From NCBI GenBank assembly GCA_013002205.1, contig JABDKN010000313.1, positions 1-48,306 of the forward strand: a stretch of DNA of 48,306 nt, in the 5' to 3' direction. Position numbers and translations under genes: made by a program. The notes beneath the pieces were generated by a model. That model was not told the origin of the DNA. It searched no databases and saw only the letters and a program-made list of their open reading frames with translations. Below, in pieces: positions 34,619 through 42,465 of the stretch (positions are counted from its first letter, which is position 1; each line of letters starts with the position of its first letter). The DNA comes from Granulosicoccus sp. (GTDB lineage Bacteria; Pseudomonadota; Gammaproteobacteria; Granulosicoccales; Granulosicoccaceae).

Positions 34619-35125
34619 ATTATATTATTCAGTAACATATGATGGTCCGACCCGGGTATGGGGTTTTTTTGACGGTGCTTGGGCTGACGGCGTCAATAAT
34701 CAAGTCACAGGCACTGGGCGTGCCAACATTCAAGCTCGCGGTGGAAATAGCAGGGCGGCGGACGGGTTTAACTCGCCTGCAACCAGAATGTCGTATCCTA
34801 GTGCCCGGTCTCTGCCCATCTCGAACTGCTGATGCTGAAAATGGAACACTGAGTGTGCTGGTCTGCTTGAGCACATGTAACCTGTTGCCCTGTAGGTCAG
34901 CTCCGCCCTGCAGAAACCTGTGGAACCGCATGAATGTGGGGTTACGTGGCATGCCGGCCACTAAAATTCATGCCAGTTCACCACCAGACAGGCAGTTTTT
35001 TTTTAGTTCGAGACAATCTTCACGTCTTCAGGCATGAATTCTGCGACACAGTTCTTAACCATTTTTGGGTTATTCGGACATTGCCCGAGATGAACAGACC
35101 CTGTCGTGCAAAGGATGTAATTGTC

Positions 35126-37615
35126 ATGGGAATACGCACCAAGCTTGTCCTCTGTCTGTTGGCGGTACTGCTCCCGCTGGTGGCGGTCAGCAGCTTCGCC
35201 ATCAGTCTATTGGACCAGCAGCTCGTGGAAAGAACCGAGTCAGCGCTTGCCAACACCCGTCGCCTGGAGGCCGCACGGATCAACGAGATCCTGGCAGCCT
35301 ATGCCAACGATGCCCGCGGGCTGGCCTCCGGTGCCCATATCAGGCAGTTCGTGGCTGCCACCAACACCTATCGCCGGACTAAACGCGATGGCGGAGATCT
35401 GCAGGAATTACAGGGTATGACGATCGGCGGCTACGATGGCTTCGCCATTGTCGACCAGGATGCCGAGTGGCCATTGCAGCAACTGGCCCTGGCAGCCCAG
35501 CGCAAGGCCGGGATCGTCGGTTCCGAGGTGGTCGAACTGAAGCTGGTAGACGATTCCGGCGAGACCCTGGGTGAGACGCTTGGCTACTCGTGGACACCCG
35601 CTGACCCATCGTTGCTGACGCAAACCCTGCGCAGCGTGAAAACCAGGTTTGGCGATGCCTTCGTCAACGACAACGGCGACCAGCGCCTGGGGATGATGTC
35701 ACCGGTGGTCAGCGACAGTGGCGAAGTGGTCGGCGCCATGCTGCTGGAAACCCGCCTGGGTCCGATCATCGACCTGGTATCCAAGCACGAGGGCGTGGGC
35801 AGGAGCAGTGAGGCTCATATCGCTCAGCCAACTGTGGACGGCCACGCCCAGTTCATCACAGCACTGCGATTTGATCGCAAGGCTGCTTTCGACAAGGTCG
35901 TCCCGGAGGCAAAGCATCTACCGATCATCCAGGCCATGGACTCCCTCGGCGGCAACATCCTGCATGCGCGTGACTATCGGGGGGTGGATTCCATATTGGC
36001 CATCGAGACCATACCCGATACCGGATGGGGCCTGGTGGTCAAGATCGACCAGGCAGAAGCCTACGCACCCGTGTACAAATTGCGCCGCCTGCTGATAATT
36101 GCAGCAGCCCTGTCGATTGTTTTCGTCCTGGTGTGCTACATGTTCTGCCTGGTGCCGATTGCACGGCGACTCAAGCGCACGGCTGTGGCAGCACGAAAGG
36201 TCATGAATGGCGACCTGACCACACGAGTCAGCGATACAATCCATGATGAAATCGGCCATCTGGCCGGGACCATCGATACGCTGGCGCGCGAGCTTGAAGC
36301 CGACCAAAAAAAGCGCACCGAAGTAGAAGCTCGGCTGCGTCACCAGGCCCTGCATGATGAACTGACAGGCTTGTTGAATCGCCAATACGCCAATTCCGTC
36401 ATCCAGCAGCTGAACGCTGACACCAGGCACAGTCATACGGTGATGTTCCTGGACCTCAACGGCTTCAAGGACGTCAACGACCTCTATGGTCATGCAGCCG
36501 GTGACGAAGTGCTTATCGATGTCGCCGGGCGACTGAGCCGCAGAATCGAGGACGGGGTCACGCTGGCCCGCTGGGGTGGTGATGAATTCGTGGTGATACT
36601 GCCGTGCTGTGAGGAAGACGCGGCCACCGAGTTCGCACTGAGCCTGCACAATGCCTTCGATGAGCCGGTCGTCTCCAGTCAGGGCGTACACAAATTGAGC
36701 TGCAGCATCGGGCTGGCAACGTCAAGCGATACGAAGTCTCTCGATGATGTCCTGATGGAGGCCGATATCCTGATGTATGAACAGAAGAAGCGCATGCGGC
36801 AAAACCGCACGAAGGTCAATATGGCCGCCCGGACAGTCGAGCGAGCACTCAAGGAAGACAGGGTCGAGGTCTGGTACCAGCCTATCGTCAGATTCCAGCG
36901 GCCCGGCAGTTATGATCTGGCCGGCGCCGAAGCCCTGGTACGGGTGCGTTCGCGTGAAGGTGGCATCGTCGGACCAGAGGACTTCCTGCCGGAGGTGGAT
37001 TCCAGGGAACTGGGGTCCGAACTCGATCGTTGTGTATTGTCACAGGCACTGGGATCGCTGACCCGCTGGAACGAAACCGGAATCGTCGGACGCGACTTCA
37101 AGTTGTCACTCAATGTCACGGCGCAGTCATTGAACGATCCCGCCTTCAGTGCCATTCTGAACAATCAACTGCAAATCGCCTCCGTATCTCCGGAGCAGAT
37201 CATCATCGAGCTGCCTCACTATTCCAAGGTGGACCCGATGGTCATCACACACTTGCGTATGCTTGGCGTAACCATGGCCCTGGATCGCATGGGAGAGGAG
37301 CCAGCCAACCTTGGTCAAACGTCCCGACTGCAGCCGGATATCGCCAAGATCGATCGACGCTGGCTCGGTGACGATGTCGTCGCACCGCATATGGTTTCCA
37401 TCTGTGATGAACTCGAGCTGAAGATCATCGTCGAGGGCATCGAGACACGCGAGCAGATGGCTGCTCTGCATGCTCTGGGTATCAAGTACTTCCAGGGCTT
37501 TCTGTTCGACAGGCCGCTACGCGCGGTGGACTTCATCAGCCGCTGGGGTGAGTCCTCTGTTCACGGCCTAGGTGACCGGTTGAGCAACCTCGGGCCATTA
37601 CGTCTCGTCAGTTGA
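35126..37615 (+). CDS. Membrane sensor with HAMP, GGDEF and degenerate EAL domains
   Basis: An 829-residue cyclic-di-GMP protein. Membrane segments at about 7-29 and 321-343 enclose a periplasmic sensor domain of dCache type. HAMP (about 345-395) leads to GGDEF (about 405-565) with intact RWGGDEFVV (484-488). No inhibitory RxxD site is in the usual place. The EAL domain keeps EAL (602-604), LNVT, KID (741-743) and VEG. Its DDFGTG loop reads DRMGEE (720-725), so the second metal Asp is lost. Diguanylate cyclase activity is likely; phosphodiesterase activity is doubtful. The ATG at 35126 follows AAGGA and opens the first membrane helix. Its last 8 bp overlap the convergent permease gene. Confidence 0.92.
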   Translation: MGIRTKLVLCLLAVLLPLVAVSSFAISLLDQQLVERTESALANTRRLEAARINEILAAYANDARGLASGAHIRQFVAATNTYRRTKRDGGDLQELQGMTIGGYDGFAIVDQDAEWPLQQLALAAQRKAGIVGSEVVELKLVDDSGETLGETLGYSWTPADPSLLTQTLRSVKTRFGDAFVNDNGDQRLGMMSPVVSDSGEVVGAMLLETRLGPIIDLVSKHEGVGRSSEAHIAQPTVDGHAQFITALRFDRKAAFDKVVPEAKHLPIIQAMDSLGGNILHARDYRGVDSILAIETIPDTGWGLVVKIDQAEAYAPVYKLRRLLIIAAALSIVFVLVCYMFCLVPIARRLKRTAVAARKVMNGDLTTRVSDTIHDEIGHLAGTIDTLARELEADQKKRTEVEARLRHQALHDELTGLLNRQYANSVIQQLNADTRHSHTVMFLDLNGFKDVNDLYGHAAGDEVLIDVAGRLSRRIEDGVTLARWGGDEFVVILPCCEEDAATEFALSLHNAFDEPVVSSQGVHKLSCSIGLATSSDTKSLDDVLMEADILMYEQKKRMRQNRTKVNMAARTVERALKEDRVEVWYQPIVRFQRPGSYDLAGAEALVRVRSREGGIVGPEDFLPEVDSRELGSELDRCVLSQALGSLTRWNETGIVGRDFKLSLNVTAQSLNDPAFSAILNNQLQIASVSPEQIIIELPHYSKVDPMVITHLRMLGVTMALDRMGEEPANLGQTSRLQPDIAKIDRRWLGDDVVAPHMVSICDELELKIIVEGIETREQMAALHALGIKYFQGFLFDRPLRAVDFISRWGESSVHGLGDRLSNLGPLRLVS

Positions 37616-39572
37616 CCAGTGGCGCAGTTCCGCGGCGCCATGCCTCATAGTAGTAACGGGTATCGATTGAGTGAGAGTAACCAAGCTGATAGCGAAACCG
37701 CGAACCGGGGATGGCATGCGCGGGTACCAGGAACTCAACCCGCAGATCATCGCCTTCACCACGCACCTGCCCTCTGAACACCGGATCCACACCGCTGGAC
37801 ACCTGAGTGGACAGTGCCCCGATGCGCACGATAAAACGCTCGGGCAGCTCGACGGTCGAGGCCGGGAAGGCTTGCTTGCCCTGCTGATCAGTTGCAGCCT
37901 GCCTGAGTGCAGACCCAGACGATGAGTCTGCGCTCAACCTGGCGGAGATTCTCGTCTGCCGGGTACCAGGCTCCCGCTGAATGACAATATCGGAAAACAC
38001 CGGATAGCGTCGAACATCCACCTCGGCATAAAGGCCTTCCATCTGCTTCCGCCAGGTCACATTGACCGTATCCAGGTCACAATCTATGGCCCGGGTGGTG
38101 TCCCGCCAGAATATCGTAGCGGGCAAGTCGCGCTTTGCCTCAGGCCTGCCGGTGGCACGCAGGAAATCGCCCAGCGACGAAAGTCCACAGGTATCCACCA
38201 GTGCTTTGGTCCACAGATCTCCCAGACTGTAATGCAACTCGGCATCGAACTGCTCGGCAAATCCGGCGGAATCGATCAGGTCGTCGAAGCGGATCTTCTG
38301 TCGCTGCCAGGATACGCTGGCCAGCTCCCAGTTGCTGCGTCGACGCTCGTTCTCGGGCACCACCTGGAAGGAAGTATATTGCGCCATGCCCTCGATGAAG
38401 AATTTCGCAGCTGAATAGTTGTCAGCCAGCGCGCGATCAGACTCGATGGCCTGCAGCACATGGGCGGTCTCATGACTGAGCACACGTCGTTGCGAGATAT
38501 TGTCGGAGAACGATTCCAGGTCCATCTGAATCTTCTTCCACTTGGCCAGCCCGGCTGCATGATCACTGCTGGCTGACAGATCGACCCGGATACTCGGCAG
38601 CACAGTCACACCCAGGATTGTGGCCAATGATTGCAGATCTGCTTCGGCATGCTCCACGATGTACTGCACCACGTCTTCGTTTTCTGCGTTGTAGACAAAG
38701 CGGTAGTGATCGGTGGCAATGACCTTGAGCGGTTGTCCTTCAGCGGTACCGGTGCCGATGCCTATTCGATAGGCCAGCATCAGGCCAAGCAGGATAAAAC
38801 CGGTCAGGCCAAACAATCCGTTGACCAGACGCATGCCACGCGTGGAGTGCTTGACCCCAGCTGAACTGGATTCAGTACGATTCCACAGTCGATAGGCAAC
38901 GAGCAGCAGAAACAGCGCAAAGCCCGTCTGCATCGCCAGTCCCCGATAATTGGCAATCAGCGCTGAGCCCTCGTATTCGTTGGACAGCAGGCTGAAGATG
39001 CTCCAGTTACCTGCGCTGCCGAGCGTATTCTCGGCCCACATCAGGATCAGCAGGTAGATGGCATAGATGACAAGACCCAATGTCCTGAACCAGGACAACA
39101 GAACCCCGTGGGACAGCACGATGAAGGCGAACAGACAGTCGCGCCAGAGCAGCGTGAACCAGACCTGTGTATAAAAGATGCCGCCTATCGACTCCGGATT
39201 AGTGGCCAGCAGCATTGCATCGATCACATAACTCAGCGTGGTGACGACACACAGCAGCAGCCACCCTGCAGCAACCTTGGCGATGAACAGGGCCGGTCGG
39301 GACACCGGCAAGGCTCGCAGAAAGTCGATGGTGGCATCGTCATACTCGCGCGGAAACAGACTATAAGCCGTGACCATGGCCAGCAACACAGAGAAGACCA
39401 CCACCGCCGTATTGCTGCTGTAATCACAATAACCCTGGCACCAGCTGCTGAAGGTCTCTTCATCGATCCGTTCGGTGAAGAACTGCATCGTGTAACCGAG
39501 TGCAAGTACCGCCAGCCACAGGTAGGCAATCGGTCGCAGCTGCCTGATCTCCTTGAGCATCAGACCCATCAT
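37608..39572 (-). CDS. ABC-2 permease fused to an extracytoplasmic gluzincin-type metalloprotease domain
   Basis: A 654-residue two-part protein. Residues about 14-268 hold seven membrane segments with a cytoplasmic coupling stretch FPREYDDATIDFLRALPVSR, typical of ABC-2 permeases. Charges place the C-terminus outside. The remaining 385 residues contain HETAH (367-371) and, 22 residues on, EGMAQY (394-399). This is the HExxH...E pattern of gluzincins, nearest in style to the 'peptidase MA' group. A beta-rich tail follows (about 520-654). An outer loop has a Cys pair (CQGYC, 45-49). Its ATG overlaps the preceding permease's stop (ATGA). It is the last gene of the three-gene ABC operon. Substrate is unknown. 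Confidence 0.85.
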   Translation of the reverse strand: MMGLMLKEIRQLRPIAYLWLAVLALGYTMQFFTERIDEETFSSWCQGYCDYSSNTAVVVFSVLLAMVTAYSLFPREYDDATIDFLRALPVSRPALFIAKVAAGWLLLCVVTTLSYVIDAMLLATNPESIGGIFYTQVWFTLLWRDCLFAFIVLSHGVLLSWFRTLGLVIYAIYLLILMWAENTLGSAGNWSIFSLLSNEYEGSALIANYRGLAMQTGFALFLLLVAYRLWNRTESSSAGVKHSTRGMRLVNGLFGLTGFILLGLMLAYRIGIGTGTAEGQPLKVIATDHYRFVYNAENEDVVQYIVEHAEADLQSLATILGVTVLPSIRVDLSASSDHAAGLAKWKKIQMDLESFSDNISQRRVLSHETAHVLQAIESDRALADNYSAAKFFIEGMAQYTSFQVVPENERRRSNWELASVSWQRQKIRFDDLIDSAGFAEQFDAELHYSLGDLWTKALVDTCGLSSLGDFLRATGRPEAKRDLPATIFWRDTTRAIDCDLDTVNVTWRKQMEGLYAEVDVRRYPVFSDIVIQREPGTRQTRISARLSADSSSGSALRQAATDQQGKQAFPASTVELPERFIVRIGALSTQVSSGVDPVFRGQVRGEGDDLRVEFLVPAHAIPGSRFRYQLGYSHSIDTRYYYEAWRRGTAPLVN

Positions 39573-41497
39573 TGAACGCTCAACCGGGTGGAATACAGTC
39601 TCAGCGGCTGGTGAAAATCGGGGCCCTCATAGTCCAGAGCGACAAGCACCCGGTCCCCGGGTGAGTAGAAGCTGTTGAGAACATGTACCTCCTCGCCAGG
39701 CTGGCATGGTGCCTCATCCTGGTACTCGTCGTCGACTTCAAATTCCGTATCGAATGGTCCGATATAGTCGTGCTTCATGACACAGAGACCTTCCCAGGAG
39801 GCAACATCGACACTGAGATTCAATGCCGAATCCCGTAGCTCATAGCCAGCGCTCAACGTGTGTACGCCGTCGGTCGTGGTGCGGCTGATAACCCGCCCCT
39901 GCAGAGACGGTATGCGCGCAAGATAACGTCGAACTGACGCCTCCTCTCGCTGGTCGGTCAACCATTGCTGCCATTGTTGATGAAAGCTGTCGAGGGGCAT
40001 TCCCAGAATCCATTCGAACCTGCTTGCTATACCTGTGCGTCGGTCTTCAAGCGTTGCCAGCGCATTGGTGGCAACCGGTTTGACGAGAAATTCATTGGCC
40101 AGTCGCAACACCGTCTCACGTCCCTGACTCTGTTCCAGAAATGCCATGGACGCCCAGGCCAGGCTCTCGGCGCCGGGATAGGAAAAGCGATCCGCAGTCA
40201 GTTGCCAGCGCTCGACCAGACGCGATGCGGCAGGGTCGATATCCAGCACCCAGAGTGCACGAGCAACCAGTTCAGCCTGGTGCTCCGGATCTATTCGTGC
40301 CCGGCCCTGCTCTACCCACCACCGGGTAAAGCCATCCAGGACCCAGTGATACGGTTCGAACATCGCGCGTCCACCGGTCTGGGCGCTCAGTACGCCATGC
40401 ATGACCACCGAGTCCAGTATCGCATCGTCGTAGCCGTCATGTTCCAGCCAGTTGGCACTGACGAAGACACCGTCCGCGGTCTCGTAATCGAAGTCATGAC
40501 GTTCTCGTCCCGGCGTCAGTGCCAGTTTCACGTCCGGTACCTTTGCCAGACCCAATGTGGCCTGTAGTGCGGAGAGCGATGCATGGGTGCGCCGGGCAAT
40601 GTCCTGCGCAGATGATTCGTTGTCTTCCTCCAGATAGAGCACGGCCACCGCAGGGTCGCCCAGGCGCACGACATAGTCACTGGAAAACTCGACAGCTTGC
40701 CTGTCATCCCGGTCCAGTAGTGTGGACCAGATGGCCATCCCGGAGGCCGCCAGCACGCCCAGTGCCACATAGTCTCTGCGCGTCATCGGCCTGGCCAGGC
40801 GTTCGACAACAGATCCCTCGCCCAGTCGGCTCAGCACGAAGCCTGCGAGGGCGAAGACCAGTGCCAGCAGCGCAGTACCGGCCATGTCCTCCCAGGGAAC
40901 GCGGTCGCGCTCGAAAACGAACAGCTGGTCATCCATCAGGGCAAACGGTGCAACACGTTCCGCATCGATACCCGGGTACCAGGCAATCAGTGCCACCAGC
41001 GCGGCGGCGAGCAGGTAGAGCGCGATGCGCAAATGCCCGCACAATGAGAAGCAGAAGACCACACTCCAGTACAGCGCACACATGACCAGGGTCTTCGCCA
41101 GGATCAGACCCAGGTAGTCAGGGGTGACATCATCTGCAACACCGGCCTGGCGGGCTGCCAGTAGAACCATCATCGTTGCAATGAATGCAAGGTAGCCATA
41201 GCCGACAAGGTACTTCAGGATCAAGGGCAGGAACGAGCCGACCGGTAACGCCTCGACAAACTGATGAGTGCCGCTGAGATACTCGCGGACGACCAGGCGA
41301 TTGCCCACGATCAGCGCTATCAGTGGCAGGAAACTCAACAACGCAAAACGCACGATCTCGAACGGGCTCATGCTGAACGGGGCCGAGGCATTCTGGGCCA
41401 GCAGCAGCAGGACCACCGCCAATGAGCCGCAGCTGAGTACCACCGCCGCCAGACGATGCTCACGTACGTCCTTGCCCAATAATGCGATCGCAGCCAT
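39569..41497 (-). CDS. ABC-2 permease with degenerate protease-like ectodomain
   Basis: A 642-residue protein with the same build as its downstream neighbour. About seven membrane segments lie at residues 16-260, with a coupling stretch VVREYLSGTHQFVEALPVGSF, then an extracytoplasmic domain. At the matching position (367-371) it reads HGVLS in place of HETAH, and the later Glu site is LDGFTRWW (388). The catalytic Glu and the second His are therefore gone. Cysteines at 572 and 598 could form a disulfide. It starts 17 bp after the ATPase stop and overlaps the next gene by 4 bp. It probably pairs with the intact permease to make a heterodimeric transporter with a pseudo-protease subunit; this is inference. 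Confidence 0.82.
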   Translation of the reverse strand: MAAIALLGKDVREHRLAAVVLSCGSLAVVLLLLAQNASAPFSMSPFEIVRFALLSFLPLIALIVGNRLVVREYLSGTHQFVEALPVGSFLPLILKYLVGYGYLAFIATMMVLLAARQAGVADDVTPDYLGLILAKTLVMCALYWSVVFCFSLCGHLRIALYLLAAALVALIAWYPGIDAERVAPFALMDDQLFVFERDRVPWEDMAGTALLALVFALAGFVLSRLGEGSVVERLARPMTRRDYVALGVLAASGMAIWSTLLDRDDRQAVEFSSDYVVRLGDPAVAVLYLEEDNESSAQDIARRTHASLSALQATLGLAKVPDVKLALTPGRERHDFDYETADGVFVSANWLEHDGYDDAILDSVVMHGVLSAQTGGRAMFEPYHWVLDGFTRWWVEQGRARIDPEHQAELVARALWVLDIDPAASRLVERWQLTADRFSYPGAESLAWASMAFLEQSQGRETVLRLANEFLVKPVATNALATLEDRRTGIASRFEWILGMPLDSFHQQWQQWLTDQREEASVRRYLARIPSLQGRVISRTTTDGVHTLSAGYELRDSALNLSVDVASWEGLCVMKHDYIGPFDTEFEVDDEYQDEAPCQPGEEVHVLNSFYSPGDRVLVALDYEGPDFHQPLRLYSTRLSVQ

Positions 41498-41514
41498 GCT
41501 ATTTCCAGTCCGAA

Positions 41515-42465
41515 CTAGGCGTTGGCCACCACGGCGATGAACACATCCTCCAGCGACATGACATCGTGTCGCCAGCCTTCATTGAGGACGATTTCGTGCG
41601 AGGCCAGCAGGTCCTCTGAAAACTGCAGGCACATTACCCATCTTCCCTGGCGCTCTCCCTCCCGCAGTACGCGCAAACGCCTGCGGGCAAACTCGCCGGG
41701 CACCGAACCGGGAACGTAGTCGGCCATGGCGATGGACCAGGTGCCTATACTGTTACGCAAAGGATCCAGCTCGCCATCGTAGATCGTACGTCCCGCTTCC
41801 ACGATACCGATGCGATCAGCCACGGCCTCTATCTCATCAATGAGATGGGTCGAAAAGAATGTGGTGGCGCCGTCACGCATGGTCTGCTCACGTACCAGAT
41901 CCAGAAACTCGCGTCGTGCCACGGGATCCATACCGGCAGTGGGCTCATCGAGTATGAGCAGCTCGGGACGAGTGGACAAGGCTATCGTCAATGCCAGTTT
42001 GGCTTTCATACCGCCTGAAAACGTGCCGATCCGGCGCTTCGCCGGTAGATCGAAGTCCGCCATCAAGTGCTGGAAACGTGGCTCGTCCCAGCGTGGATAG
42101 AAACCACTGACAAACCGTGCAAGCACTTTGGGCGTCATCCAGGGGTACATGTTCTGTTCCTGGGCGACGTAACCGATTCGCTGCCTGATGCCGGTGACAT
42201 CAGAGCTCAGGCTCTTGCCGAAAACACGAATCTGACCCGCATCGCAACGCGTTATACCCATGATGATGCGTATGGCTGTCGACTTCCCGGCTCCGTTACG
42301 ACCCAGAAAGCCGAACACCTCTCCGGGGTACACCGCAAGCGTCAGCCCGTCGAGTACCCTGAGCGAACCGAAGGACTTCTGCACCGCCTCCAGGCTCAAC
42401 ACTGGACTGCCCGTTGGACGGTATGCTGGGACGGGAGAGGCCTCGTAGGCCAGGTGGCTCATCAT
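41515..42465 (-). CDS. ABC-2 type transporter ATP-binding protein
   Basis: A 316-residue ATPase that would power the two permeases downstream. Walker A is GRNGAGKST (55-63), the Q-loop is around VAQEQNMYPWMTP, the signature is FSGGMKAKL (149-157), Walker B is LLILDEPTAGMDP and the H-loop is FFSTHLIDEIE. A C-terminal extension (about 220-316) is not part of the core. The frame stays open to 42759, but that region overlaps the divergent GFA-like gene. A TATAAT hexamer at 42490-42495 on this strand places the promoter right before the ATG at 42465. The leader would be only about 18 nt, without a clear Shine-Dalgarno. Confidence 0.92.
   Translation of the reverse strand: MMSHLAYEASPVPAYRPTGSPVLSLEAVQKSFGSLRVLDGLTLAVYPGEVFGFLGRNGAGKSTAIRIIMGITRCDAGQIRVFGKSLSSDVTGIRQRIGYVAQEQNMYPWMTPKVLARFVSGFYPRWDEPRFQHLMADFDLPAKRRIGTFSGGMKAKLALTIALSTRPELLILDEPTAGMDPVARREFLDLVREQTMRDGATTFFSTHLIDEIEAVADRIGIVEAGRTIYDGELDPLRNSIGTWSIAMADYVPGSVPGEFARRRLRVLREGERQGRWVMCLQFSEDLLASHEIVLNEGWRHDVMSLEDVFIAVVANA

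Follow-up and report, generated by a model that had tools for sequence, protein, structure and literature searches.

The window, a 48,306-nucleotide stretch of Granulosicoccus DNA, carries a three-gene transporter unit on the minus strand (42465 to 37608), and its host belongs to the marine Granulosicoccus-type bacteria. In the order of transcription, the genes encode an ATPase and two permeases, here called perm1 and perm2 (Table 1). The ATPase and perm1 genes are 17 bases apart and the two permease genes are joined by an ATGA overlap, so the ATPase-first ABC-2 operon described in the first-pass annotation, which was made from the sequence alone, is present as claimed. A further in-frame TTG lies upstream of the ATG at which the ATPase is taken to start. 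The ATPase has Walker A (GRNGAGKST), signature (FSGGM), and Walker B (LLILDEP) motifs and a C-terminal extension that ends in SLEDVFI. Walker A and the FSGGM signature were intact in 26 of 26 orthologues, and a search pattern for an LDEP-type Walker B, read as a pattern match only, was matched in 20 of the 26.

Table 1. Features of the three-gene transporter (window positions) and loci of related single-chain fusions.
Feature	Position	Strand	Basis
ABC-2 exporter ATPase, 316 aa from ATG	41515..42465	-	PF00005, E = 1e-29
perm1, 642 aa: ABC-2 membrane domain (~1-262) and pseudopeptidase ectodomain (~268-642)	39569..41497	-	ORF, alignment, AlphaFold/Foldseek
perm1 HGVLS (367-371), degenerate zinc-motif position	40385..40399	-	H367 kept throughout; Glu and second His missing in 26/26
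perm1 invariant block E381-x2-H384-W385-x2-D388-G389, in place of the EGMA helix	40331..40357	-	Alignment
perm1/perm2 ATGA stop/start overlap, 4 bases	39569..39572	-	ORFs
perm2, 654 aa: ABC-2 membrane domain (~1-270) and intact gluzincin ectodomain (~280-654)	37608..39572	-	PF12730, E = 1.5e-9
perm2 HETAH (367-371), predicted zinc/catalytic motif	38460..38474	-	H367, E368, H371 invariant in 28/28
perm2 EGMAQY (394-399); E394 is the predicted third zinc ligand	38376..38393	-	E394-A397 invariant in 28/28
perm2 YSLG (448-451), candidate catalytic Tyr occupying the M1 YxKG position	38220..38231	-	Y448, G451 invariant; aligns to YxK[G/A] of the single-chain fusion
Further single-chain ABC-2/M1 fusions	L133, L134

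Above the Pfam cut-offs, the matches in the window were the ATPase (PF00005) and the membrane domain of perm2 (PF12730); neither ectodomain, nor any other part of the window's perm1, had a match at that level. At an E value of 0.1 or better, PF12730 was found in all 28 perm2 proteins and in 15 of 26 perm1 proteins. Roughly seven membrane segments had been proposed for each permease. Hydropathy bears this out for perm1, with seven segments in the window protein and in most of the relatives shown, but a simple threshold gave five in the window's perm2 versus seven in two of its relatives (loci L043 and L056); helices in the AlphaFold models number about seven in both permeases. The last membrane segment is preceded by a positively charged loop, and each ectodomain has an invariant pair of cysteines (C572/C598 in perm1 and C462/C498 in perm2) that probably forms a disulfide. 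Both features fit a periplasmic location of the ectodomains. The two permeases are paralogues over nearly their whole length (hhalign probability 97.6, 594 columns), while a link between the ectodomain sequences alone was not significant. With ABC-2 membrane domains and a cognate ATPase whose motifs are intact, the system is a type V (ABC-2) exporter.

The two ectodomains differ in their putative active sites. As first read, one permease carries HETAH followed by EGMAQY, and this is perm2; the other has HGVLS at the same numbering and LDGF (residues 387 to 390) in place of the glutamate motif, and this is perm1. Across 28 perm2 proteins with identity down to 30%, H367, E368, H371, E394, G395 to A397, Y448, G451, C462, and C498 were all invariant, so the HExxH is conserved among orthologues. 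The HExxH was absent from every one of the 26 perm1 proteins aligned: after the invariant H367, the Glu position is occupied by G, H, or Q and that of the second His by S, L, I, or similar residues, and the position expected for the Glu of EGMA holds an invariant D388. Since no perm2 protein departs from the four gluzincin residues and no perm1 protein retains the set, the pattern is not due to chance, and the alignments uphold the earlier idea of a matched, presumptively active and inactive pair. Among close relatives, dN/dS was 0.05 to 0.09 for the perm2 ectodomain (0.01 to 0.05 in the active-site region) and 0.095 to 0.143 for the perm1 ectodomain (0.03 to 0.1 in the dead-site region). These low values indicate that the dead domain of perm1 is maintained by purifying selection and is not decaying. 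H367, H384, and D388 of perm1, the latter two within the invariant E-x2-H-W-x2-D-G context, could conceivably form a metal or ligand site.

The fold of these domains was assessed from AlphaFold models searched against the PDB with Foldseek. The ectodomains were modeled with confidence (pLDDT mostly >85 over residues 350 to 540), and the membrane parts more weakly. The best matches of perm2 were M1 aminopeptidases (IRAP, 5mj6, E = 5.7e-5; ERAP1, E = 6.2e-5; probability 1.00), accompanied at the same probability by LTA4H and a TFIID entry (7edx chain B), which we take to be TAF2, a pseudo-M1 protein. The perm1 ectodomain matched aminopeptidase N (E = 1.2e-3, probability 1.00) as well as the metalloprotease ZmpA and LTA4H, and its membrane part matched KpsM, NosY, CcmB, and TarG. 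Global TM-scores were low (~0.25) because multidomain proteins were compared at once and the alignments were partial. Searching the sequences of solved structures with the perm1 and perm2 profiles returned no relatives. Judging from the models, the ectodomains both appear to adopt an M1-aminopeptidase-like gluzincin fold, with a type V (ABC-2) exporter fold for the membrane part. A gluzincin fold around HETAH, as first surmised, is thus predicted, and it is M1 type. The more specific label of a peptidase-MA-like domain fails: no match to Pfam Peptidase MA was obtained, and the models suggest an M1 catalytic domain with a C-terminal beta-sandwich instead. Around the HExxH, only sub-threshold matches to DUF6055, eCIS_core, and SprT-like families were seen, and DUF6055 was rejected as the ectodomain family for that reason.

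The catalytic-domain fold and the C-terminal beta-sandwich are shared with M1 aminopeptidases (IRAP, ERAP1, PepN, and LTA4H) and with the pseudo-M1 TAF2, and the HExxH...E and Tyr residues are held in common with the aminopeptidases. However, membership in the M1 family fails on sequence. PF01433 (Peptidase_M1) matched none of the 28 perm2 proteins, and its sole match in the whole genome was the C195 gene. The perm2 spacing is HExxH-x22-E rather than the HExxH-x18-E of M1; a GLAxW-type strand without a Glu takes the place of GAMEN; and the N-terminal domain of M1 enzymes (domain I) is absent from the ectodomain. The Tyr motif reads YSLG, YGIG, or YTLG across perm2 proteins, with Tyr and Gly invariant, whereas GAMEN (or AMEN), HExxH, and YxKG mark the true M1 enzymes encoded in the same genomes. 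An attempted profile link to these PepN-like enzymes failed, as the alignment extended little beyond the HExxH. The lack of GAMEN and of domain I argues against predicting aminopeptidase activity, and it makes an endopeptidase-like or otherwise specialized activity seem likelier than trimming by an aminopeptidase. Leader-peptide removal by M1 proteases, acting as both endo- and aminopeptidases, has been documented in the case of AplP (PMC10885120).

It is improbable that both ectodomains are structural only, serving as a periplasmic gate or chaperone in which the HExxH is a relic or holds zinc for stability. In favor of this idea, the motif is certainly missing from one of the two domains, and zinc may play a structural role. 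Yet E368 would act as the catalytic base rather than as a ligand, and it is invariant in 28 of 28 proteins, as is Y448; a relic would be expected to drift, as perm1 did. Judging from the invariance of the four catalytic/zinc residues and Y448, the perm2 site very probably does chemistry on a peptide.

Conservation of the system was read from extracted stretches of 27 loci. The order ATPase-perm1-perm2 was kept in 25 of the 25 related loci in which all three genes were readable, as well as in the window, and all of these loci belong to Granulosicoccaceae; named records among the relatives are Granulosicoccus and other members of that family. Pairwise distances of the three proteins correlated at 0.91 to 0.97 across 25 loci, which is what joint inheritance of a unit would give, though shared species ancestry contributes to the correlation. 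The conserved order, the ABC-2 domains in both permeases, and the folds speak for the predicted heterodimer of ABC-2 type served by an ATPase of its own. Among 36 family genomes, a protein search turned up perm2 relatives in 28 (window included), and its single match outside the family (genome G040, from another family of the class) was a generic ABC-2 match. With a perm2 profile, 34 of 48 family genomes matched, two of them by generic ABC-2 pieces only, leaving 32 that carry perm2. Outside the family, the full profiles returned only generic ABC-2 matches to the membrane part from the 274 genomes of gammaproteobacteria searched, and the ectodomain profile had no match besides the window in 398 Pseudomonadota genomes. 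That the arrangement is conserved across the family probably means a built-in machine, one that would handle peptides leaving the membrane.

Distribution also bears on a different role, in which the ectodomains would bind, and perm2 cleave, an external antimicrobial or host-derived peptide while the pump expels it or detaches it from the membrane, a protective function and not the export of the cell's own product. The system is patchy in the family, being missing for instance from many genomes of genus g4; no precursor gene is linked to it; and, among named models, the ATPase best matches PmtA and DrrA, both of the export/resistance type. Against this, nearly all genomes of the window's genus have the system, a pattern closer to that of a housekeeping function than to that of an accessory resistance island, no matches were found on the plasmids searched, and most loci have no linked two-component regulator. 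We consider a sensor or resistance pump of this kind rather unlikely.

Downstream of the operon and convergent to it, a protein with GGDEF and EAL domains and a periplasmic sensor region is encoded at 34934 to 37615, its coding end overlapping that of perm2 by 8 bases. This neighbor is common to only 12 close relatives (window included), and deeper clades have other neighbors. Because the neighbors change between clades, the three genes appear to stand alone, with the substrate not encoded next door. In three genomes (loci L045, L046, and L047), a secreted DUF4159-type protein is encoded directly upstream of the ATPase on the same strand, and a gene for an MscS-like channel follows. The family holds several solitary DUF4159 paralogues besides the copy in the MoxR/vWA operon. 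DUF4159 was not taken as a partner, since the remaining copies inspected did not adjoin ABC-2 operons.

The first-pass annotation knew of ABC-2/M1 fusions and did not recognize this domain pair; the pair is best described as a two-chain variant of the single-chain [ABC-2]x2-M1 fusion, the nearest known kind. An example of the latter occurs in the sister genome G010, where an ATPase (L131:9988-10857) adjoins a 1,213-aa [ABC-2]x2-M1 protein (L131:6337-9978). G010 carries this fusion locus (L131:6337-10857) besides the two-chain system. Full-length relatives of the fusion were found in 2 of 143 gammaproteobacterial genomes sampled. In its second half, the fusion can be aligned to the membrane domain of perm2 up to and including the last segment (probability 85.7), and its HEIAH, EGLTE, and YAKA align, with weak statistics, with HETAH, EGMAQ, and YSLG of perm2. 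Both systems combine ABC-2 membrane domains, an extracytoplasmic M1-type gluzincin, and an adjoining ATPase gene, and this shared layout and the alignments lead us to regard the window system as a two-chain, twin-ectodomain form. In the fusion, a single chain of ~1,200 aa holds the two ABC-2 halves together with one complete M1 domain, which has its N-terminal region and a GAMEN-like SExIGF strand; here, two genes encode two chains whose ectodomains are shorter, the one active-looking and the other dead. A search of the open-licence literature found no experimental description of ABC-2/M1 fusions.

Other transporters resemble the system in part. The type V exporters NosDFY, KpsMT, TarGH, and CcmAB have a similar membrane fold and ATPase type, but their permeases lack a peptidase ectodomain. 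Peptidase-containing ABC transporters (PCATs) are likewise exporters fused to a peptidase. In PCATs, however, a C39 cysteine peptidase lies on the cytosolic side of a type IV exporter fold, while here a predicted zinc peptidase lies on the outer side. Myxococcus MasABK, considered from a text match, is unrelated, and in the TMcin system (TmcBC/TmcP) the protease and transporter genes are separate and of other families.

We have high confidence in the anatomy and conservation of the system. As to its role, we favor, with a probability of roughly 0.45, a heterodimeric, peptide-processing exporter in which a peptidase outside the cytoplasm is paired with a pseudopeptidase. An ATPase homodimer would lie beneath a perm1-perm2 heterodimer in one type V exporter, with each permease ending in a periplasmic domain of M1-type gluzincin fold. 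A peptide or peptide-bearing lipid would be moved or extracted from the inner membrane or cytoplasm and cleaved at its exit by the perm2 domain, acting as a working zinc peptidase, much as if TAP had its trimming peptidase, ERAP1, built into the pump. The perm1 domain, which keeps its fold and a conserved pocket, may bind or position the substrate, form a closed chamber with its partner, or regulate it. A narrower version of this proposal, to which we give clearly less credence, has the heterodimer as obligate, the dead and live domains forming a two-part proteolytic chamber over the channel in which ATP-driven extrusion of peptides is coupled to endoproteolysis and the pseudoenzyme is the substrate receptor.

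Several observations count against peptide processing: no substrate gene adjoins the operon, the sequence profiles have no link to true M1 enzymes, global TM-scores are low, and lipids or polysaccharides are frequent cargoes of type V exporters. The cargo might be a lipid, a polysaccharide, or an envelope precursor, with export coupled or regulated through the action of the peptidase on an envelope protein, and the fold neighbors from polysaccharide, teichoic-acid, and cofactor systems (KpsM, TarG, NosY, and CcmB) would suit such a pump. But the three genes have no consistent linkage to genes for polysaccharides or lipids, and the invariance of the perm2 active-site residues and Y448 also speaks against it; we judge a nonpeptide cargo somewhat less probable still than the protective role discussed above. 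If the peptide-processing reading is true, Granulosicoccaceae would possess a pump with a peptidase and a pseudopeptidase in its two halves, on its outer face, the topological reverse of known peptidase-containing exporters. The natural active/inactive pair would offer a clean test of the service that a pseudopeptidase renders its partner, and the simpler two-chain form could give access to the ABC-2/M1 fusion group as a whole.
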